Source: an uncultured Acidimicrobiales bacterium
GTDB taxonomy: Bacteria; Actinomycetota; Acidimicrobiia; Acidimicrobiales; Poriferisodalaceae
Direction of reading: 5' to 3'
DNA length: 35,708 bases
Assembly (NCBI GenBank): GCA_905477545.1
Contig: CAJQGN010000042.1
Coordinates: 1 to 35,708 of the forward strand
Position 1 is the stretch's first letter. Each line of letters starts with the position of its first letter. The translations under genes and the position numbers were made by a program. The notes beneath the pieces were generated by a model. That model worked only from the letters and a program-made list of their open reading frames with translations, had not been told where the DNA came from and made no database searches. Shown piece by piece: positions 2,523-35,708 of the stretch.

Positions 2523-3683
2523 ATGTCTGAGATAGATCCAAACGTAGACGAAGAGCTCAACGAGACCGCGATAGAGGGAGAAAACGAGCCACCTCCCTCC
2601 GGCCCGAAAGAAAAAAAGACTAAATGCCCAGAGTGCCCTGGCGGATCGCCACCTTGGATGGCAACGTTCGCAGATATGGCCACCTTACTCATGGCTTTCT
2701 TTGTATTACTGCTTTCTTTTGCCAACGTTAATGTCCCAAAATTTGAACAAGTCAGCGGTTCACTGGCAGTTGCTTTCGGTGTCGCGAGGGTGATACCGAA
2801 AATTGATATTCCAATGGGAGAGACACTGCTCAGCCTTGAGTTTACTCCAACAGATGCAGAAGCCACCTTAATACCGAACAAAAGTCAGAAGGTTGAAGAT
2901 GCAACAAAAGATAACGTCAAGCAGCTTACAGAAGAAAATGAATCGACCTTTTCAAATCAAGATGAATTCGCTGCCGTTTTAGAAACGTTCGAAGAAGAAA
3001 TCGCAGCTGGGTTGGTTCAAGTCAAGACAAAGGGTAACAAAATTGTTGTCGAGGTAACGCAATCAGGTTCTAACGAAGTGTCTCTAGAATCTCAGATCGG
3101 CATGGGCAACATTGTTCCCCAAGAAATGCTAGAGATCGCGAAAAAAATATCAGACCTAAAGACCGACTTCATCAGCCCTCTTGAGGTCAGAAGCCAGAGC
3201 AACTCTGAAGGCGACTCATCGAATAATAGCTCGAGCGGAGAAAACCAAAAATACGACAGAATACGGAGCATTCTATCAGACGAGATCTCTAACGGCCTTG
3301 TGGAGGTCGAACGTAATGGCGATAAGATCATTCTTCGACTCGGCCAACAAGATAGCTTTGACTCTGGTAGAGCTGAGGTTAAAGCATCTTTTGAAGGCAC
3401 ACTACAAAAAGTGGGAATGGCACTCAACGATGTTGGCGGCATAGTAAAGATAGAGGGCCATACAGACAATGTACCGGTCGGCTTTAGTTCTCGCTACAGA
3501 TCTAATTGGGATCTTTCCTCAGCGCGCTCAGCAGCAGTGGCAGATTACATACTTGGATCTACAAACCTTCAACCAGGTAACATCTCTGTAGCCGGTTTCG
3601 CCGACAGCAAACCTATCGCCTCAAACGACACCACGGATGGAAGAGCGAGGAATCGAAGAATAGAGGTCTTGGTCGATGGCTGA
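2523..3683 (+). CDS. motB: Flagellar stator subunit B, PomB/MotB type, copy 1
   Basis: 386 residues. An acidic cytoplasmic N-terminus carries a CPECPGG motif at 35-41. One membrane helix (about 46-66) has the ion-binding aspartate in WMATFADMATLLMAFF (Asp51), followed by a plug-like segment. A long periplasmic linker leads to an OmpA/MotB peptidoglycan-binding domain with GHTDN at 312-316 and an RNRRIEV end. It is about 70 residues longer than Vibrio PomB. The extra length includes a degenerate copy (about 152-184) of the helix-strand unit that opens the OmpA domain (about 249-281). It anchors the stator to the cell wall and forms the ion path with MotA. Its 3' end overlaps the next motB by 8 bases. 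Confidence 0.95.
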   Translation: MSEIDPNVDEELNETAIEGENEPPPSGPKEKKTKCPECPGGSPPWMATFADMATLLMAFFVLLLSFANVNVPKFEQVSGSLAVAFGVARVIPKIDIPMGETLLSLEFTPTDAEATLIPNKSQKVEDATKDNVKQLTEENESTFSNQDEFAAVLETFEEEIAAGLVQVKTKGNKIVVEVTQSGSNEVSLESQIGMGNIVPQEMLEIAKKISDLKTDFISPLEVRSQSNSEGDSSNNSSSGENQKYDRIRSILSDEISNGLVEVERNGDKIILRLGQQDSFDSGRAEVKASFEGTLQKVGMALNDVGGIVKIEGHTDNVPVGFSSRYRSNWDLSSARSAAVADYILGSTNLQPGNISVAGFADSKPIASNDTTDGRARNRRIEVLVDG

Positions 3684-4854
3684 GGAAGAAAAACTTGAAG
3701 GCGAAGAGAACCTTGATAACAACGACGCTTTAGAGGAATTAGAAGAGCCTGTCGAGGCAAAGCCTTCATCAGAAAAGTGCCCAGAGTGTCCAGCCATGGC
3801 CCCTGCCTGGATGGCAACTTTTGCAGACATGGCCACACTTCTGATGGCGTTCTTTGTATTAATTTTATCTTTCGTTGAGATGGAAGACCCTTCTATATTT
3901 AAGGAGGTGTCTGGCTCGATGTCCAATAGCTTCGGTGTGCAGAGAGAAGTACCAAGCGTCGAGCCCCCGATGGGAAAAAATATCATTGCTCAAAATTTCC
4001 GAACCTCAAAAGTTAACCCTTCGTTAATCGTTAACGTGCAAGAAGAAACAACGGACCTTGAACCCGAAGAGAAAGAACTTAAATCAACATCTCAAGCGAG
4101 TAACTTCGACACAAATTCTGACGCTGAAGTTCTTAGGCGTGCTCTAGCAACCGAAATTTCAAAAGGCCAAGTAGAGATAAAAGTAGAAAATGATTCAGTG
4201 GTTGTCGTTACCAAAGAGGACACATTCAAACCGGACATTAATGCTACGGAAACTGGCGAACGGGACACCGGAGAGATACCAACAGAACTACTTGAAATGT
4301 ATGCAAAAGTTGCTGAAGCTCAGTCGCTAGTAGAATCCGAAGTTTTCGTAGCGAGCAACAGCAGCGCCCTTGCGAGCCAAAGGGAAACTCAGCAACAGAG
4401 AGATCAGCAAATCGAGGACCAATTAGAAAAGGTTCGAGCTAATTTAAAATCTCAAATAGATCAGGGCCTAGCAAATGTTGAGCGTATCGGTGACCAGATA
4501 TTAATTCAGCTCTCAGCTCAGGATTCGTTCAGGTCCGGCTATGCGGAACTTAGACCAGACTTTCTTCCGACTTTGTCAGCAGTAGGACAGTCTATTTCAG
4601 ACCTTAATTCAAAAGTAACTGTCTCCGGGCATACGGACAGCATTCCCATCGCTTTCAGTGAGCGTTTTCTCTCCAATTGGGATCTATCCGCCGCCAGAGC
4701 GGCCGCTGTTGCAGATTTTTTTCTTGATAGTAATGCTGTCCCGGATAGCCAAATCGATGTGGTTGGATTCGCTGATACTAAACCCGTTGCTAGCAATGCA
4801 ACCCCGGCAGGAAGGTCTCAGAATCGAAGAATTGAAATCTTAATTGACAGTTAA
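3676..4854 (+). CDS. Flagellar stator subunit B, PomB/MotB type, copy 2
   Basis: 392 residues with the same plan as the preceding gene: acidic N-terminus, CPECP motif, membrane helix with Asp51 in WMATFADMATLLMAFF, plug-like segment, internal helix-strand repeat (about 152-186 and 253-287), and OmpA/MotB domain with GHTDS at 318-322. The membrane helix is nearly identical to copy 1 but the periplasmic linker is quite different and holds a Gln-rich coiled stretch near 235-255. It overlaps copy 1 by 8 bases and has its own ribosome site (GAGGT, 3664-3668), so the two are co-translated with the single motA. All expected catalytic features are intact, so this is not a decayed duplicate. Confidence 0.93.
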   Translation: MAEEEKLEGEENLDNNDALEELEEPVEAKPSSEKCPECPAMAPAWMATFADMATLLMAFFVLILSFVEMEDPSIFKEVSGSMSNSFGVQREVPSVEPPMGKNIIAQNFRTSKVNPSLIVNVQEETTDLEPEEKELKSTSQASNFDTNSDAEVLRRALATEISKGQVEIKVENDSVVVVTKEDTFKPDINATETGERDTGEIPTELLEMYAKVAEAQSLVESEVFVASNSSALASQRETQQQRDQQIEDQLEKVRANLKSQIDQGLANVERIGDQILIQLSAQDSFRSGYAELRPDFLPTLSAVGQSISDLNSKVTVSGHTDSIPIAFSERFLSNWDLSAARAAAVADFFLDSNAVPDSQIDVVGFADTKPVASNATPAGRSQNRRIEILIDS

Positions 4855-20635: not shown

Positions 20636-21061
20636 TTATTTCTGCATCATTTCAATTGTTCGCATCATCAGACGTTTAGCTGTGTTGCTAGCCTCTACCG
20701 CACTTTCAAAGGACCTAGTGGCCGCCTTCATGTCCACCATTTCTGTCATCACGTTTACATTTGACGCAAAAACAAAACCTTCATCGTTAGCGAGCGGATG
20801 ATTCGGTTCATATCTCTGAGGATTTGCAGTGTTGTCTTCCTTGACCCCCGATACCTGTACGCCGCCTTTTACCAAGTTACTTCCAAGATATACTTGATCC
20901 TCCAAAACGGTCTTAAAGACAGCTCGCTTCGCTTTGAATGCTTTTTCTGGCGAGGAATCAACCGTGTCGGCGTTAGCAACATTAGAAGCCGCCAGATTGA
21001 TCCTGGCAGTCTGAGCATCCATTGCCGCGCTCGATATACTCATAATGTTTTCAAAGCTCAT
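20636..21061 (-). CDS. flgC: Flagellar proximal rod protein FlgC
   Basis: 141 residues, normal for FlgC. N-terminal ISSAAMDAQTARINLAASNV with ANADTV; central GVKEDNTANPQRYEPNHPLA; C-terminal SNVNVMTEMVDMKAATRSFE. It forms the proximal rod with FlgB and FlgF. In nearly all flagellar operons flgC directly follows flgB; here a complete flagellin gene (21085-22863) lies between them, ending 23 bases before the flgC start. Confidence 0.97.
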   Translation of the reverse strand: MSFENIMSISSAAMDAQTARINLAASNVANADTVDSSPEKAFKAKRAVFKTVLEDQVYLGSNLVKGGVQVSGVKEDNTANPQRYEPNHPLANDEGFVFASNVNVMTEMVDMKAATRSFESAVEASNTAKRLMMRTIEMMQK

Positions 21062-21084: not shown

Positions 21085-22863
21085 TTATCTGAGCAGATCG
21101 AGAACTAACTGCGTAAGCTGGTTAGCCTGAGACAACATTGATGTTCCCGCCTGCTGGATAACTTGAGCTTTTGCTAAGCGTGCTGATTCCAAGGCGAAAT
21201 CCGCATCATCAAGTCGAGATCTAGCATCAGCTGTTTTCTCAGCGATGTTCATTAAATTTGAGATCGTATAGCCAAGACGATTTTCAATCGCACCTAAGTC
21301 AGACCGCATCTGCGCAACCTTGTCTAACGCTGCATCGATAATTGAAATTGAATCCCCTGCTGCAACCATCGTTGAAACTTGAATCTGAGTAAGGTTTTTC
21401 AAAGAGGCCGCGGCGGCGTTTTCAGTGTAATAACCCTTGGAGGCAACACCAGCAGTCGTCGTCGAAATAGCCTCATCAGTCGCACCGGCTGTAACAAAAG
21501 TCGCTGTTGCACCCGGAACGCCGGCTGCTTTCCAGGTGTATGCAAGAGTCGTTGAACTAGCTTTGCTTACAGTAAATAGTAGATCGCCATAATTTGAATC
21601 AGCCTGTATATCGGCTAGCAGCGCGTCAATATCAGCAGGAGCACCACCTGAGTAATCAAGTGAAACAGTCGTCGTTCCATCTCCGACAGTCGTCGTTCCG
21701 TTGTAACTAGCGAGAGTACCAACCGTAACTGTCTCGACCTGGTTGACGGCCTTCTGATCAATTGAAAACGCATTCGGTGAAACCAGCTTCAAAGTTCCAG
21801 AAACACGCGTTGCATCATTAGCGCCAGATACTGCCAGTGAGACCGCCGATCCGACAGTATTGGTAATGACACCGTCTTCACCAATTTTCTGGACTCTTAA
21901 GTCATTGTGACCCGCTAGCGTTTGAGAATTCTCGATCGTGATGTCGTCACCATCGGCGTCGAATAACATTATTTTGTTATCCGATGAACTCGCTGTAACT
22001 CCAGTCGAACCAGATATCTGATTAATGGCATCGACTGCTGACTCAACGTCACCCTCGGCAATAACGAAGTTTCCGGTTTCGTAACCGTTAATCTTTATGC
22101 TGTAAGTTTTTTGCGTCGTAGTGGCTGAGTACAACGAAGCATAGGTTTTAGCATAGGCCTTAACGCCTGTTTGACCTGTTAAATTGTTTACTTTTACTGC
22201 AGTCTCTTTAGCTGAGTCCCCAGGAGAGGCCGCAGTCGTAACTGTTCCCAAGAATCCGAAAATCTCAATGTCGTCATTTGTCGTCGTACTATTCGAAGGA
22301 GGAGTCTGATCGGCTGCAGCTGCACTCTGTCCATTACCCACAAGCGTGTGGGCGCCAATCATCTCAGCAGCAACCGACTCAACTGAGAAAATGATGTTCT
22401 CGCCTTCCTCGATGCCGACCTGGAGAGACTTATTTAGAAAAGTGCCGTCAAGAATCAACTCACCGTTGTAGCGCGTATTAGCCGCAACACGGGAAATCTC
22501 TTGAATCAACAAATTGACTTCCGACTGGAGAAAACTTCTATCAGCCGAACTGTTTGTTCCGTTCGCCGCTTGCAGGGCGAGCTCACGCATTCTCTGAAGC
22601 ATGTCCGAAACTTCACCAAGGGCGCCTTCGACCGACTGAGTCAGAGCTTGACCATCGTTCGCGTTTTTCACGGCCATCGCTAGGCCACGAACTTGCGCGG
22701 TCATCCGTTGCACCATCGCCAACCCCGCAGCATCGTCGGCCGCACTGTTGATTTTAGAGCCGGTTGATAACCGCTCCATGGCGGTCTGCAGTTCAGTATT
22801 AGATTCTGCTAGCGCCCGTTGAGCCGTTAACGATGAAATGTTGGTGTTGATAACTAAAGCCAT
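21085..22863 (-). CDS. Full-length flagellin located between flgB and flgC
   Basis: 592 residues. The N-terminal D0/D1 is classical flagellin (ALVINTNISSLTAQRALAES, MERLSTGSKINSAADDAAGL, LLIQEISRVAANTRYNGELI). The C-terminal D1/D0 reads DSISIIDAALDKVAQMRSDL, GAIENRLGYTISNLMNIAEK and ends QANQLTQLVLDLLR. A variable centre (about 165-500) includes Flagellin_IN-type elements (SIKINGYETG, VDAINQISGSTGVTASSSD). The ribosome site AGGAAAGG precedes ATG 22863. It sits 33 bases after flgB and 23 before flgC, all on the minus strand, so it should be co-transcribed with early rod/hook genes from the sigma-54 promoter at 23353-23368. It is not FlgL, which is separately present. A possible internal sigma-28 -10 lies at 23037-23044. 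Confidence 0.95.
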   Translation of the reverse strand: MALVINTNISSLTAQRALAESNTELQTAMERLSTGSKINSAADDAAGLAMVQRMTAQVRGLAMAVKNANDGQALTQSVEGALGEVSDMLQRMRELALQAANGTNSSADRSFLQSEVNLLIQEISRVAANTRYNGELILDGTFLNKSLQVGIEEGENIIFSVESVAAEMIGAHTLVGNGQSAAAADQTPPSNSTTTNDDIEIFGFLGTVTTAASPGDSAKETAVKVNNLTGQTGVKAYAKTYASLYSATTTQKTYSIKINGYETGNFVIAEGDVESAVDAINQISGSTGVTASSSDNKIMLFDADGDDITIENSQTLAGHNDLRVQKIGEDGVITNTVGSAVSLAVSGANDATRVSGTLKLVSPNAFSIDQKAVNQVETVTVGTLASYNGTTTVGDGTTTVSLDYSGGAPADIDALLADIQADSNYGDLLFTVSKASSTTLAYTWKAAGVPGATATFVTAGATDEAISTTTAGVASKGYYTENAAAASLKNLTQIQVSTMVAAGDSISIIDAALDKVAQMRSDLGAIENRLGYTISNLMNIAEKTADARSRLDDADFALESARLAKAQVIQQAGTSMLSQANQLTQLVLDLLR

Positions 22864-22896: not shown

Positions 22897-23283
22897 TCAC
22901 TCTCCTCTGAGTGCTCGACGAATACCGCCGACTCGATTTTCAATGAATTGAACAGTCGCCATGTAGCGACCAGACTCCTTACCAAATTCCGCTTGTTGAT
23001 GATGTAACTCAACCGTGTTGGCGTCCGGGGACGCGTTTATCGGCCTTCGAAAAACTTCATAGTTTCCAAAGCCACCGCGTTGCCCTAAGTGACCTGAATC
23101 AGTTTTTTGAAGATTTAGTTGCTGACTAGACGATGCGGACATCGCAGCCTTAAAATCGATGTCACGAGCTTTATAGTGAGGCGTTTCCACATTGGCGATG
23201 TTCTCGGATAGAACTCTCATGCGATGTTCTCGGAGATAAAGCGCATTTTCGTGAATCCCGAATATGTTGTTAAAACTAGACAC
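22897..23283 (-). CDS. flgB: Flagellar proximal rod protein FlgB
   Basis: 128 residues, normal length. FNNIFGIHENALYLREHRMR, VLSENIANVETPHYKARDID and FKAAM are the FlgB N-terminal signature; the end has KESGRYMATVQFIENRVGGI. It forms the first ring of the rod on MS-ring/FliE. The start is GTG 23283 with AGGA upstream. It is the first gene of the operon and lies about 60 bases downstream of the predicted sigma-54 start site. Confidence 0.96.
   Translation of the reverse strand: MSSFNNIFGIHENALYLREHRMRVLSENIANVETPHYKARDIDFKAAMSASSSQQLNLQKTDSGHLGQRGGFGNYEVFRRPINASPDANTVELHHQQAEFGKESGRYMATVQFIENRVGGIRRALRGE
23037..23044 (-). promoter_or_regulatory. Possible internal sigma-28 -10 element inside flgB
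   Basis: The minus strand reads GCCGATAA exactly, within the flgB coding sequence (Arg-Pro-Ile-Asn codons), about 170 bases upstream of the flagellin start. No TAAA lies at the expected 15-base distance (ACTA instead), so the -35 is poor. It could give late, FliA-dependent transcription of the embedded flagellin; chance occurrence in coding sequence is also possible. Confidence 0.3.
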
Positions 23284-26432: not shown

Positions 26433-26789
26433 GTGGAAGAATTAAACCTCGCCTCTACCACCTCCTCTGCGCTCAGCCGCCTGCTAAACGAAGAATTCAC
26501 AGCGCTAGAAGCCAAAGACTTCGAAAAAGTTGAGCAAATCCAGGAAGAAAAACTCTCTTTGATGCAAAAGCTTCAATCGTTTTGGGACGCGTTAAAAAAA
26601 TCAGAAACCACCGACGCGCAGCTACTAGATGAACTCACGCAAAAGCTAGAGATCTGCAAAGAGCAGCATCTGAGAAATTCCTTGTTACTAAACAAACAAA
26701 TGGAAATTACTCGCAATCTCCTTGGTGCAATAACCAAAAAAAATAATGCGAATGCTTCGGTGTACGACAAGCTCGGAAAAATGACTTAA
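26433..26789 (+). CDS. flgN: FlgN-like chaperone for FlgK and FlgL
   Basis: 118 residues, helical coiled-coil throughout (ALSRLLNEEFTALEAKDFEK, VEQIQEEKLSLMQKLQSFWD), with N/K-rich C-terminus. Sequence in this family is poorly conserved; the length, pattern and position 16 bases after flgM identify it. FlgN delivers the junction proteins FlgK and FlgL to the export gate. The start is GTG 26433. Its stop codon interlocks with the stop of the convergent FlhB-like gene (26786-26789). Confidence 0.88.
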   Translation: MEELNLASTTSSALSRLLNEEFTALEAKDFEKVEQIQEEKLSLMQKLQSFWDALKKSETTDAQLLDELTQKLEICKEQHLRNSLLLNKQMEITRNLLGAITKKNNANASVYDKLGKMT

Positions 26790-27073
26790 GCATTATCGAC
26801 ATCATCATCCCAAGGGGTCTTCCCCTGAAGACGATAAACCCACGCTAAGACTATCGCCACAGAACGAAACAAACTTTCCGGTATTTCTTGATTCATCTCA
26901 AGCCGCGATAGTGTCTCAGCCAAGAGCTGGTCTTCGGTAACAGGAACTCCAGATTTACTGGCTATATCTACAATGGAGCTGGCTAAATCATCTCGACCTT
27001 TTGCGATTAATTTAGGCGCACGAATCTTGTCATAAAGTAAGGCAACCGCAACCTTCTCTTTATCTTCAAGCAT
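26786..27073 (-). CDS. FlhB C-terminal-domain-like protein (FhlB/EscU type)
   Basis: 95 residues matching the cytoplasmic, post-cleavage part of FlhB/YscU proteins: VAVALLYDKIRAPKLIAKGR, then a GVPVTEDQLLAETLSRLEMN block and EIPESLFRSVAIVLAWVYRL. No membrane helices and no NPTH autocleavage motif. In other bacteria such FhlB proteins can substitute for the FlhB C-terminus in substrate-class switching. The start (ATG 27073) overlaps the FliK-like gene by 8 bases, and these two are a recurrent pair. Full-length flhB is not in the window. Confidence 0.9.
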   Translation of the reverse strand: MLEDKEKVAVALLYDKIRAPKLIAKGRDDLASSIVDIASKSGVPVTEDQLLAETLSRLEMNQEIPESLFRSVAIVLAWVYRLQGKTPWDDDVDNA

Positions 27074-30541: not shown

Positions 30542-32656
30542 ATGGAATCTATACTTTTTTCACTGACGAATTTCCGACACTTGGTGAGTTCTTTTCCGCT
30601 GAGTTCGTTGGTAACGCCGTTAATCGTTCTGCTGGTACTCACGCTCCTTGTGTTGCCCATTCCGCCTGTCATGCTGGACGTTTTATTCACCTTTAACATC
30701 ATACTGGCACTTTTAATCATCATGGTCGCTATTCACACCGCGACACCGATGGATTTTTCATCTTTTCCTATCATTATTCTTTTCGCGACCGTAATGCGAT
30801 TGGGCCTTAACGTCGCCTCTACGCGAGTGGTTTTAATACAAGGACATGAAGGAGGCGATGCCGCCGGGAAGGTAATTGAGGCATTTGGCCAATTTGTAAT
30901 TGGCGGAAATTACGCAGTAGGGCTAATAGTGTTCTTAATATTAATGATTATAAATTTTATTGTAATCACCAAAGGGGCTGGTCGCGTCTCAGAAGTCATC
31001 GCCAGGTTCACTCTCGATGCCCTACCTGGTAAGCAAATGGCAATCGATGCTGATCTTAATGCGGGCGTGATCGATCAAGAGACCGCAAGGAAAAGGCGTG
31101 CGCAAGTTTCTCAGGAATCTGATTTCTTTGGCTCTATGGATGGAGCATCGAAATTCGTGAGGGGTGACGCGATTGCTGGAATATTGATCCTTCTAATAAA
31201 TTTAGTTGGCGGCCTAGCCATAGGAATGCTGCAACACGATCTGTCTCTAGACGGCGCATCGAAAGCTTATGTTCTTCTTACCATCGGGGATGGTCTAGTC
31301 GCCCAAATACCTGCACTGATACTTTCTCTTGCGACAGCTATTATCGTCTCAAGAGTATCCACAGATGAATCTGCTCCGGAACAAGCCACAAAACAGCTGA
31401 GCAACCCACTTGCATTCGGGGTTGCGGGCGGAACTTTAGTTGCCTTAGGGTTAATACCCGGGATGCCAAATGGCGTTTTCCTCCTACTTGGATCAAGTTC
31501 AATCGCACTGAGTTACTTCCTTCGAAAAAGACAGGCCACTGAACTAGTAGAACAGAACGATGTTGAAGCACATGAAATAGAAAAATCTAGCGAGGAAGTG
31601 CTGGAACTGGACTGGGATGATGCCGGCCAGGTAGACGTTATCAGTGTGGAACTCGGGTATGGCCTTATTCCACTAATCCAAGAAGATCGACACGGACGAC
31701 TGCTTCAAAGAGCAAAAGGAATCCGTAAGAAAATGTCCGGAGAGTTTGGGTTTTTGCTGCCAACTATTAGGATTCGAGATAATCTCGATATCCCTCCTCA
31801 TCAGTACCAATTAGTAATCAACGGATCAACCAGAGGTAGGGGAGATATCGAATTAGGAAAATTCCTAGCGATTAACCCAGGTTCAGTTTTAGAAACCGTT
31901 TCCGGCACACAGACAAAAGAGCCGGCTTTTGGCTTGGAAGCCGTTTGGATCGAGGCCAAGGATAAAGAATACGCTCAAGCAGTGGGCTACACGGTCGTAG
32001 ACACCAGTACCGTCATTGCCACTCATCTTAATAACGTTCTTAGAAACAACGCAGAAGAGCTTCTAACCTACGAAATTACTGAGAGCCTCATCGGCCGGAT
32101 GGAAGAAACTTCTCCTAAACTTGTCGAGGAACTCATCCCAGATAACCTCTCCATGAGCACCGCCCTTAAAGTATTACAGAATCTGCTTTCTGAAGGCGTT
32201 CCAATTAAAGACATGCGGACAATCCTAGAAACACTCTCGGATGCCGCACCATACACGAAAGCACCTGAGGCGTTGACCAGCTACGTTCGGACTCGGCTAG
32301 GACGACTAATCGTGCAGCAGCTTTGTGACCCCCTCAATACTCTTGAAGTCATTACACTAGATCCTAACCTCGAACAGATCCTAACGGACTTAGTCAAGGC
32401 AGCCACTTCCGTCGATGAGGTAACGCTAGAACCCAATCTCGCACAGACCCTTATCGAATCACTATCAGAAGAAGTAAACAAAGCTCAAGAACAGGATCGT
32501 GCGGCAGTTCTCATTGTTTCTCCCACGATACGTCAGTGGTTATCCATCTTCATTGGGAAACTTAAAAAAGAACTTTCTGTTTTGTCCTACAGAGAGGTTC
32601 CTGATGATCAATCTATCAAAATTATACGAACTATCGAATTAAACGAAAAAGATTAG
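30542..32656 (+). CDS. flhA: Flagellar export gate protein FlhA
   Basis: 704 residues, normal length. The N-terminal half has about eight membrane helices with the conserved block KVIEAFGQFVIGGNYAVGLI, VFLILMIINFIVITKGAGRV and TLDALPGKQMAIDADLNAGV. The C-terminal cytoplasmic domain (about 340-704) binds chaperone-substrate complexes such as FliS-flagellin and FlgN-FlgK. FlhA uses the proton motive force and forms the nonameric gate. It is the first gene of flhA-flhF-flhG-fliA, behind a sigma-54 promoter. Nothing unusual in the sequence. Confidence 0.98.
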   Translation: MESILFSLTNFRHLVSSFPLSSLVTPLIVLLVLTLLVLPIPPVMLDVLFTFNIILALLIIMVAIHTATPMDFSSFPIIILFATVMRLGLNVASTRVVLIQGHEGGDAAGKVIEAFGQFVIGGNYAVGLIVFLILMIINFIVITKGAGRVSEVIARFTLDALPGKQMAIDADLNAGVIDQETARKRRAQVSQESDFFGSMDGASKFVRGDAIAGILILLINLVGGLAIGMLQHDLSLDGASKAYVLLTIGDGLVAQIPALILSLATAIIVSRVSTDESAPEQATKQLSNPLAFGVAGGTLVALGLIPGMPNGVFLLLGSSSIALSYFLRKRQATELVEQNDVEAHEIEKSSEEVLELDWDDAGQVDVISVELGYGLIPLIQEDRHGRLLQRAKGIRKKMSGEFGFLLPTIRIRDNLDIPPHQYQLVINGSTRGRGDIELGKFLAINPGSVLETVSGTQTKEPAFGLEAVWIEAKDKEYAQAVGYTVVDTSTVIATHLNNVLRNNAEELLTYEITESLIGRMEETSPKLVEELIPDNLSMSTALKVLQNLLSEGVPIKDMRTILETLSDAAPYTKAPEALTSYVRTRLGRLIVQQLCDPLNTLEVITLDPNLEQILTDLVKAATSVDEVTLEPNLAQTLIESLSEEVNKAQEQDRAAVLIVSPTIRQWLSIFIGKLKKELSVLSYREVPDDQSIKIIRTIELNEKD

Positions 32657-32672: not shown

Positions 32673-33548
32673 ATGGAACTTCAAAGGTTTGTTGGTAAAG
32701 ACACAAAATCTGTTTTAGATGAAATTCGCGCCGCTCTGGGTGAACAAGCCCTGATTGTTTCCAATACAAAAGTCGGATCAAAGACAGAAATCATCGCCGC
32801 TCGGGTAGCACAAAGTGCTACTGCAGAGACACAGGTCAGTGTAGACGAAGACGCATCAAAACTGGCAGGAAAAAAAGAGGATTTCTCTCAAACAATGGCT
32901 AATCATCAAAGGTTCTCATCGCCAACTTTCACAGAAGATGATCCCTGGGAGCACATTAGGCAAATAAACAACGAAATTTCGTCTATAAAGTCAGCCTTAA
33001 AAGAAAGCTCGGAGCAAACTCGCAACGAAATCCCAACGGATCTCCATGAGGTATCTAAACGAATTGCCGAACGGAAAACTGAGAACTACCTCGAACTTCT
33101 TGATAGCGCTAAAGAAGGTTGCCACATCATTTGGGGGGAGAGAAAGTCAGGGAAGTCACTCCTCATCAAGGAGTTAATAAAAAGAAGAGCTAGCAACCAC
33201 GAAAAAACCATTATTTTAAGACTGCCGCACACCACCAGTTCAGATGACTCACATCTGTGTGCAATCGCAGAGCGGTTTTCAGTTGATGTTATTTTTATCA
33301 ATCAAGTGGAAAGCATCGAGTCTATGATCGCACTACTTGATAGCGACCATTTGATCCTTATCGAAGCAGACCTATCAAAACTAAACAGCCTTGCACTAGA
33401 CACCACAACCTCATGGCTGGAAAAGAGCTTCAACTTTATTATCGACGAGAACGAGAAGCAGACAGATTTGATTTCAGAATTGTTTCAACAAATTAACGCA
33501 AAAATACCTGCGAGAATTCCCTCAATGATCATTGAAGACATCAGATAA
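32673..33548 (+). CDS. flhF: FlhF-like polar placement protein with degenerate GTPase domain
   Basis: 291 residues, shorter than typical FlhF (about 366-500). The N-terminal part is FlhF-like: ELQRFVGKDTKSVLDEIRAA, then LGEQALIVSNTKVGSKTEII. A linker (50-140) precedes a SRP-GTPase-like fold. The P-loop is kept (GERKSGKS, 155-162) but the G3 motif DTAGR is replaced by EADLS (231-235), and no TKLD-type G4 motif is visible before the closing segment. The fold order can still be followed (HLCAIAERFSVDVIF, IESMIALLDSDHLILI). FlhF marks the pole and recruits early components; GTP hydrolysis here is doubtful. It lies 16 bases after flhA and 106 before flhG. Confidence 0.88.
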   Translation: MELQRFVGKDTKSVLDEIRAALGEQALIVSNTKVGSKTEIIAARVAQSATAETQVSVDEDASKLAGKKEDFSQTMANHQRFSSPTFTEDDPWEHIRQINNEISSIKSALKESSEQTRNEIPTDLHEVSKRIAERKTENYLELLDSAKEGCHIIWGERKSGKSLLIKELIKRRASNHEKTIILRLPHTTSSDDSHLCAIAERFSVDVIFINQVESIESMIALLDSDHLILIEADLSKLNSLALDTTTSWLEKSFNFIIDENEKQTDLISELFQQINAKIPARIPSMIIEDIR

Positions 33549-33654
33549 TGGCCACAATTGTGTAAACTCCTTTTGCAAACGCGCGAGACTTCTCTTTACT
33601 CAGTCTTTAGAGTTGAGGACCGACCGCAATAGTATTTTAAAGTGAGGATCTAAT

Positions 33655-34416
33655 TTGTCTCGTCAAGTAGCCATTTGTAGCGGGAAAGGAGGAGTAGGTA
33701 AAACTTTCACCTCAATCAGTCTTGCCTTAGCCCTACGCGATATGGGTAAAGACGTACTACTAGTTGACGCCGACCTAGGCCTTGCTAATGCTCAATTGAT
33801 GCTCGGTGTATCACCCGAGCTTACTATCGCAGATTATATAGAAGGCACAAAAACGCTATCTGAGGTTACTACGGATATTAGTAGTGGCTTAAAGTTGATT
33901 CCGGGCGCCTCCGGCAATGCGAGCTTAGCCAACCTGCCACTGGGCACGCTTACAGACCTTTACGAAGAGATCACCAGAGTATTTCCCGATAGCTTTATAC
34001 TCTTTGATCTCGCCGCCGGAATCTCGGATCAAAATATGCACATGTTAAAACTGTGCGACACAAGAATAGTCTTATTCGTGGACGAGCCAACATCTATAGC
34101 GGATAGTTATGGAGTACTTAAATTGCTTCATCTGAGTGACAAACTTGATGAAACTTACCTGGTACCAAACCAAGTAAAAAGCCTCGACAGCGGCAAAAAA
34201 TTCTATGACAGAATGAATCGTCTCTGCCTTTCATTTCTCGGTAAACCCGTAGGCTTTATTGGAGCAATTCATGAGGATACCGCGGTCAAAGCTTCCATAA
34301 GGAAAAGAACACCGATTGACACCTCGTTCCCTGATTCAAAAGCTTGGTATAATATACGCGCAATCGCAGAGAAAATTGCTGGCGAGCATGGCGACATAGA
34401 GCCCTCCCAAACTTGA
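33655..34416 (+). CDS. flhG: FlhG/FleN MinD-like ATPase, lacking the N-terminal DQAxxLR helix
   Basis: 253 residues. Deviant Walker A SGKGGVGKT at 9-17, then LLVDADLGLANAQLML and a FDLAAGISDQNM switch region. It is a MinD/ParA-type ATPase that limits flagellar number and in Pseudomonas antagonises FleQ. Known FlhG proteins start with a DQAxxLR motif helix that stimulates FlhF GTPase. Here the protein starts at the first beta strand: TTG 33655 has a strong GAGGA site (33644-33648) and an in-frame TGA at 33643-33645 rules out an extension. Fits with the degenerate FlhF next door. fliA starts 10 bases downstream. Confidence 0.93.
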   Translation: MSRQVAICSGKGGVGKTFTSISLALALRDMGKDVLLVDADLGLANAQLMLGVSPELTIADYIEGTKTLSEVTTDISSGLKLIPGASGNASLANLPLGTLTDLYEEITRVFPDSFILFDLAAGISDQNMHMLKLCDTRIVLFVDEPTSIADSYGVLKLLHLSDKLDETYLVPNQVKSLDSGKKFYDRMNRLCLSFLGKPVGFIGAIHEDTAVKASIRKRTPIDTSFPDSKAWYNIRAIAEKIAGEHGDIEPSQT

Positions 34417-34426
34417 AGCACTAACC

Positions 34427-35179
34427 ATGAACACCGATTCCGATTCGAACTCGACGAGTAATAGTAAACCTGAGGCCTATCGCGCTGCAGCCTCATACAC
34501 AGAGGAATCGACAGGTAATATCACTCCAGAATTACTGTCACTTGTAAAACGTATTGCTGTCCATCTAAAAGGCAGGCTTCCCAAGACGGTTGAAGTCGAC
34601 GATTTAATGCAGTCCGGGTTCGAGGGACTTGTCCAGGCTATGAATACCTTCGACAAGACAAGAAACATATCGTTGGAACAATATGCAAACACCCGAATAC
34701 GCGGCGCGATGCTGGATGACGTACGAAGAATGTCACAAGCCACAAGAACCACAATATCATTCAAAAGGGAACACTCAACCGCTATTGAAAAGCTAACAAA
34801 CCGATTCGGTAGAGAACCCACAGGTAAAGAAATTGCAAGCTACCTTGGCAAAGACGTAGAGACTTATCAAAAAGAGCGACTGATTGTTGCCGGGACCGTC
34901 AATTCTGAAAACGACAATGGCATTATGCCAGAAATCCTAGACAACAACGGGGACAGCGAACCTTCCCCAGAAGAAGAATTACAGAAAACAGAGCTACTTT
35001 CCGCGCTCAAAGCATCCATCGATGACTTGCCTGAACGGACCCAACTAATCCTATCTCTGTATTACAAAGATGAGCTAAACTTAAAAGAGATAGCGGCAGT
35101 GATAGATGTCACAGAATCTCGCGTAAGCCAGATCCTAAGTGAAACTGCTGATAAGCTAAGGAAGAAAATAACCCAATAA
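34427..35179 (+). CDS. fliA: Flagellar sigma factor FliA (sigma-28)
   Basis: 250 residues. Sigma region 2: LPKTVEVDDLMQSGFEGLVQ, then LEQYANTRIRGAMLDDVRRM. Region 3: STAIEKLTNRFGREPTGKEI. Region 4: ALKASIDDLPERTQLILSLY, YKDELNLKEIAAVIDVTESR and VSQILSETADKLRKKI. It directs transcription of late flagellar genes; candidate targets in this window precede fliS, motA, flgM and flgP. Its activity is checked by FlgM (26123-26416). It follows flhG closely, in the standard order flhA-flhF-flhG-fliA. Confidence 0.97.
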   Translation: MNTDSDSNSTSNSKPEAYRAAASYTEESTGNITPELLSLVKRIAVHLKGRLPKTVEVDDLMQSGFEGLVQAMNTFDKTRNISLEQYANTRIRGAMLDDVRRMSQATRTTISFKREHSTAIEKLTNRFGREPTGKEIASYLGKDVETYQKERLIVAGTVNSENDNGIMPEILDNNGDSEPSPEEELQKTELLSALKASIDDLPERTQLILSLYYKDELNLKEIAAVIDVTESRVSQILSETADKLRKKITQ

Positions 35180-35207: not shown

Positions 35208-35708
35208 ATGAGCATCCTTGGAGGTTTAAAGAAAAAAGCAGAGCAGAAGAAAGCTCTTGCCTTCTACAAGCAGTTGGGGACTATCAAGGGCGATCCAAGG
35301 GATATCCGCAACCTAAAATCCTTAATGAGCGCTCGTCTCACAGCCTTCATTGATGCCACTTTCATCGATGGTGCTAAGAAAACAGAAGCACTTCAAGAAT
35401 CTGGCCAACCAATCTCTTCACTCTCCCCAACCTCCAGCTATAAGGACGTCAAAACGATTAGCGGTATCGTCTGCGTTTATCTACCCGAGAAATATGCCCA
35501 GTTTTTCTTTGAACTAGGCTCCAGATACCAGAGTGCAAGCTTAACGCTCAATCAAGTGGTTGAACTCGCTGATGAAATGGCAGCAGAAATCTCTGCATCG
35601 CTGGTTCTAGACCGACCGATTACACCTCTCAATTTTCTAAGATCAGCCGAGTCAGAGGGTGATGAAGGTGAAGCTGAGTCAACAGAGGGACAAACTGGAA
35701 GCCCTGAG
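35208..35708 (+). CDS. Unknown protein, truncated by the window edge
   Basis: 167 residues visible from ATG 35208 with the frame still open at the end. The start is basic (SILGGLKKKAEQKKALAFYK). A middle alpha/beta part includes KTISGIVCVYLPEKYAQFFF and ELGSRYQSASLTLNQVVELA. The visible end is acidic and low in complexity (SEGDEGEAESTEG). No signal peptide or membrane helix. I do not recognise the family. It is 28 bases after fliA on the same strand and probably in the same transcript. In Vibrio and Pseudomonas cheY and cheZ occupy this position, and it is neither. Confidence 0.75.
   Translation, partial: MSILGGLKKKAEQKKALAFYKQLGTIKGDPRDIRNLKSLMSARLTAFIDATFIDGAKKTEALQESGQPISSLSPTSSYKDVKTISGIVCVYLPEKYAQFFFELGSRYQSASLTLNQVVELADEMAAEISASLVLDRPITPLNFLRSAESEGDEGEAESTEGQTGSPE

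Follow-up and report, generated by a model that had tools for sequence, protein, structure and literature searches.

A flagellar operon encoding a reduced FlhF without G2–G5 motifs and an FlhG without enhancer helix or membrane-targeting sequence

Known FlhF–FlhG systems and the locus

The FlhF proteins of Shewanella putrefaciens, Vibrio and Pseudomonas are SRP-type GTPases of about 380–540 aa that consist of a FliG-interacting domain (FID), a linker and an NG domain. The first 60 residues of the S. putrefaciens protein are enough for FliG binding (PMC11236974). The purpose of the FlhF GTPase cycle is debated because its requirement differs between species. In the FlhF–FlhG activator complex of B. 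subtilis, FlhG provides an enhancer helix with a co-catalytic Gln. The DQAxxLR sequence of this helix is reported to be absent from Pseudomonas FleN, which occurs beside a full FlhF (PMC12713375). FipA, moreover, has been described in polar flagellates using FlhF and FlhG (PMC11236974, PMC11620751). A literature search, with most subscription journals outside its scope, turned up no description of an FlhF that lacks the GTPase motifs.

The window analysed here is a stretch of 35,708 nucleotides that carries the gene order flhA-flhF-flhG-fliA, with flhF located between flhA and flhG-fliA as in Pseudomonas putida (PMC6424431). The relevant features are the following:

30542..32656, + strand: flhA, the upstream neighbour of flhF, used as the species marker for the tree
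32673..33548, + strand: flhF, 291 aa, reduced, without G2, G3, G4 and G5 motifs and with the N domain almost gone
32673..32807, + strand: FlhF residues 1-45, the FID, assigned from conservation and the match to 9en1
32937..33005, + strand: FlhF residues 89-111, a conserved helix, DPWxxI..N.EI..IKSxL
33114..33548, + strand: FlhF residues 148-291, a truncated P-loop (former G) domain
33643..33645, + strand: in-frame TGA 5' of the FlhG start, which excludes the N-terminal enhancer helix
33655..34416, + strand: flhG, 253 aa, TTG start, a MinD/FleN-type ATPase
34427..35179, + strand: fliA (sigma-28), the downstream neighbour of flhG

The window FlhF resembles its described counterparts in FID sequence and fold, in operon order and in a homologous P-loop domain, but it lacks DTAGR, TKLD, G2 and G5, has almost no N domain and is only 291 aa long. 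FlhG resembles Pseudomonas FleN (5j1j) in having the ATPase motifs and no enhancer helix, and differs from it in the absence of the C-terminal membrane-targeting helix (EFFVERL) and in that the domain of its target, FleQ, was not detected in the genomes. Compared with B. subtilis, the same two genes are adjacent, but neither side of the activation interface is present in the window pair.

Other flagellar genes of the window were recognized by reading translations. A flagellin-like gene of 592 aa (21085-22863, - strand) lies within the flg gene run, flanked by flgB-like (22897-23283) and flgC-like (20636-21061) genes, and a tandem pair of OmpA/MotB-like genes (2523-4854, + strand) follows a MotA-like gene. 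A 95-aa protein like the FlhB C-terminal domain (26786-27073, - strand), noticed by reading only, adjoins a FliK-like gene. After fliA, an ORF at 35208-35708 (+ strand) encodes 167 aa up to the window end and has no Pfam match. A homologue lies directly 3' of fliA in 26 of the 28 sub-lineage loci (EAC81, L045-L048, L124-L146), the exceptions being L126, where the contig ends, and L128, and it occurs in none of L147-L163; this ORF is a lineage-specific flagellar-operon gene.

Relatives and host of the window

Over the part compared, an independently assembled contig of UBA4457 (DGOV01000063) is 99.7% identical in DNA to the window. A contig of EAC81 (NZNP01000032) has the same architecture, with 59% identity in FlhF, 81% in FlhG and 91% in FlhA, and the genome G086 (FlhA 83% identical) shows the same short FlhF and FlhG features. 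An assembly or frameshift artefact, to which the metagenomic origin of the contig and its binning problems could point, therefore has next to no probability: the features recur in EAC81 and G086, gene lengths are equal in these two and in UBA4457, and the intergenic frames hold no remnant of G4 or G5. In three genomes, the 106-bp flhF-flhG spacer contains no TKLD or GQ-like trace of an FlhF C-terminus in any frame.

Misbinning of the window contig (C42 of the bin G000) affects at least one MAG, since the G000 and UBA4457 bins share only 44% identity in Ffh and 41% in FtsY despite the 99.7% identity of the contigs. The EAC81 and UBA4457 bins also disagree (FlhA 91%, Ffh 61%, FtsY 46%). No FlhF or FlhG homologues were found in the relatives of G000 that were searched (40 and 38 genomes, the latter being the other sampled members of its family), and in the flagellates of that family, whose FlhA is 35-48% identical to that of the window, flhF and flhG were not found by blastp in the stretches around flhA. 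This lack of homologues is explained by the misbinning of the window contig, whose host is most likely a gammaproteobacterium. Thus, whole-genome statements rest here on a consistent set of relatives and not on G000. A second, canonical flhF, which the initial annotation had named as the counter-evidence to look for, did not turn up in the bin of the window or in six further bins that hold a short FlhF; the only SRP-type proteins beside the short FlhF were FtsY and Ffh, a count to which the binning caveat applies. MAG incompleteness touches this and every other absence reported below.

A reduced FlhF with a conserved FliG-interacting domain

The initial annotation had described an FlhF of 291 residues that keeps the P-loop GERKSGKS, carries EADLS where DTAGR belongs and shows no TKLD, and the alignment against 65+ FlhFs bears this out. 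The P-loop occupies residues 155-162, and the G3 position reads IEADLS instead of the canonical IDTAGM/L, which puts an acidic residue (E231) at the G3/Walker B site. The chain ends inside the beta strand on which G4 (TKLDE) is expected, and nothing aligns to G5. G1 alone is thus kept from the G1–G5 set of an SRP-type G domain, and no match to Pfam SRP54 reaches E 1. The NCBIfam FlhF model (TIGR03499) covers only residues 1-138, with 43.6 bits, below its equivalog cut-off of 174. Most of the N domain is also missing, with about 37 low-confidence residues between the 89-111 helix and the P-loop domain, a reduction that the initial annotation had missed. Judging from these motifs, it is very unlikely that the window FlhF works as a normal SRP-type GTPase.

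The N-terminal part of the protein is far better kept. With Foldseek, the best match of model residues 1-45 is the crystal structure of the S. putrefaciens FlhF FID (9en1, E 4e-4; 36-40% identity, TM to target 0.78-0.91), which is also the sole significant PDB relative of the protein found by phmmer. The predicted structure has a pLDDT of about 80-89 at residues 1-40 and is poor outside the FID (mean 55, pTM 0.39). The FID is 84% identical in EAC81 and G086, the linkers 17-42%, and the 89-111 helix 78% in EAC81 and 52% in G086. Between the window and EAC81, pN/pS is 0.13 for the FID, 0.43 for the linkers and 0.26 for the core, and flhF as a whole evolves fast (0.30 vs 0.07 for flhA), all of these values being a rough guide used in place of dN/dS since synonymous sites are saturated. 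The fast evolution of FlhF could also be compatible with weak selection. In profile–profile comparisons, the short FlhFs matched the G domains of intermediate FlhFs with 98% probability and canonical ones with 88%, against 0.06% for an FlhG control, which identifies the short P-loop domain as a descendant of the FlhF G domain.

FlhG and the sampling of FlhF–FlhG pairs

As had been noted from the sequence, FlhG begins at its first beta strand and an in-frame stop excludes the DQAxxLR segment: the TGA at 33643-33645 lies three codons ahead of the TTG start, which is backed by the conservation of GAGG..T..AA.TTG in the window, EAC81 and G086. The spacer 5' of flhG was also considered as a conserved regulatory element and rejected, only the ribosome-binding site being conserved in the three genomes. 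The deviant Walker A motif SGKGGVGKT, DADLGLAN and FDLAAGI of a MinD-like ATPase are intact. The match to FleN (5j1j; 150 bits) extends over residues 5-241 and ends ahead of the C-terminal 30 residues of FleN, and no membrane-targeting sequence of the EFFVERL type follows, an absence that the initial annotation had overlooked.

The initial annotation had further proposed a matched loss, in which the GTPase motifs of FlhF and the activator helix of FlhG disappear together as one interaction and FlhG is freed to control the transcription master regulator. The window, EAC81 and G086 do indeed lack both features. This proposal was examined by aligning the pairs from 68 flhA-flhF-flhG neighbourhoods (20 from across the class of EAC81, 40 chosen from its order as the closest by FlhA, and relatives of the window for the rest), 65 of which contained an FlhG and provided an flhF-flhG pair. 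A DQAxxLR-like helix was present in 18 of the 20 FlhGs of the wider gammaproteobacterial sample but in none of the 45 from the window's order, 32 of which are nevertheless paired with an FlhF that keeps DTxG (or DNPG). Several of these partners are fully canonical, with DTAGL/M, (S/T)KxDE and a G5 region (e.g., L149, L150, L153, L158-L162), and Pseudomonas FleN likewise lacks the helix. Since the helix is absent beside intact FlhFs, its loss preceded the decay of FlhF and does not predict it. The role in transcription control is weakened as well, since the N-terminal domain of FleQ (PF06490) was undetected in 16/16 tested sub-lineage genomes with a decayed or weakened FlhF, whereas the same search detected it in Pseudomonas-like genomes and the L142-L145 group. 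A matched loss thus appears highly improbable.

The membrane-targeting sequence of FlhG follows a different pattern, being present in all 52 pairs whose FlhF has G3 and absent from all 13 without it, with no mixed pair; the P-loop is kept in each of these 13 FlhFs. The 13 pairs form two clades or one, as the AU test does not reject a single event (p 0.42), and with only one or two independent events no significance can be assigned to the association. The coupling of both losses, in at most two events, is therefore striking but unproven. In L142-L145, which form a second group, DTxG is lost, the FlhG C termini are cut to ...FFSNWG or ...FFQ, and the FleQ domain is kept.

The domain of FipA (DUF2802) was not found in the same 16/16 sub-lineage genomes. 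It scored above the cut-off in six other genomes and was missed in some with a canonical FlhF; thus, single FipA absences mean little, and 16/16 means more. Both the FleQ and the FipA result come from one Pfam model each, applied to MAGs, which divergent forms could escape.

Order of decay in the FlhA tree

The FlhA tree is a rapid reconstruction in which several branches are long. On it, relatives that share 53-59% FlhA identity carry DTSG or DTPG, mostly together with a weak G4 and no G5, and those at 62-64% have lost DTxG and kept LTRLD/LTRFD in FlhFs of 414-425 aa. At about 70% (G061, G063, G071), FlhF is shortened to 305-308 aa and its G3 and G4 positions read IEVDY(T/S) and LTRLDL, and the window clade has the shortest FlhF, from which G4 is gone. 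The score of the canonical FlhF HMM drops along the tree from 171 to about 140, 89, about 65 and about 39 bits. These sequences indicate that the decay of FlhF is graded and later than the loss of the FlhG helix. The FlhG helix would have been lost first, no later than the base of the sampled order; the guanine-recognition motifs of FlhF would then have weakened, in the sub-lineage that also yielded neither FleQ nor FipA; DTxG and the FlhG membrane sequence would have gone together; and the FlhF N domain and C-terminal end would have gone last.

Proposed function and alternatives

The reading that best accommodates these observations, to which a probability of about 0.55 is given, is that the reduced FlhF is a FliG-docking adaptor built on a relic P-loop domain and that FlhG is a soluble FleN-like ATPase. 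The FID, better kept than any other part of the protein, matches 9en1, a domain that suffices for FliG binding, which suggests that FlhF docks FliG. Its FID would thereby nucleate the flagellar base, and the remainder would consist of a linker, one conserved helix and the relic P-loop domain, which may bind nucleotide or some partner at the pole and would not run an SRP-type GTP cycle. From the motifs, we infer a loss of GTP binding or hydrolysis. FlhG would no longer activate FlhF or be anchored to the membrane by its C-terminus, and the FleQ that it could inhibit is probably absent; it is probably a soluble dimer whose most likely targets are other flagellar parts, for instance C-ring proteins. 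The initial suggestion of a nucleotide-binding or structural FlhF thus stands, best when combined with FliG docking, and the matched loss and the master-regulator role proposed with it are not supported.

It could also be that the P-loop domain was repurposed as a new switch for ATP or another nucleotide, which it would bind and perhaps also hydrolyse, E231 serving as the Walker B acid. The Walker A motif in 13/13 decayed FlhFs, the acidic residue at the strand end in six short FlhFs (IEADLS/IEVDYT) and the core pN/pS, which indicates selection, agree with such a switch, as do sub-threshold Pfam AAA matches (AAA_22, 24 bits vs a cut-off of 27). However, these matches fall below curated cut-offs and are centred on the P-loop, as would be expected for any P-loop protein, neither a sensor nor an arginine finger is seen, and the homology of the domain is to FlhF, which makes a repurposed domain rather unlikely. 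That flhF is instead a decaying gene heading for loss, with little present function, is more doubtful still: its divergence is high (59% identity between the window and EAC81 against 91% for flhA) and motifs and domains have been lost, but the open frame is intact in six short-FlhF genomes, the FID is conserved, pN/pS stays well under 1 in both FID and core, and the P-loop and the operon position are retained.

A broader extension of the adaptor reading, possible but decidedly tentative, is that a gammaproteobacterial lineage dismantled the FlhF–FlhG–FleQ–FipA circuit in order (the helix; FleQ and FipA; G3 and the membrane sequence; the N domain and G4/G5) and that FlhF, now a pseudo-GTPase adaptor, continues to build the flagellum via FliG, perhaps with the ORF at 35208 as a new regulator.

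Significance for flagellar biology

Two features that are usually lumped together come apart in these genomes, as a full FlhF can occur beside an FlhG without the helix; the FlhG membrane sequence, by contrast, is lost where FlhF lost G3. A natural series that runs from a full GTPase to an FID with a relic domain reveals what a functional flagellar system can spare, and it predicts that FliG docking would be the core function of FlhF, and that GTP hydrolysis and activation by FlhG would be regulation.
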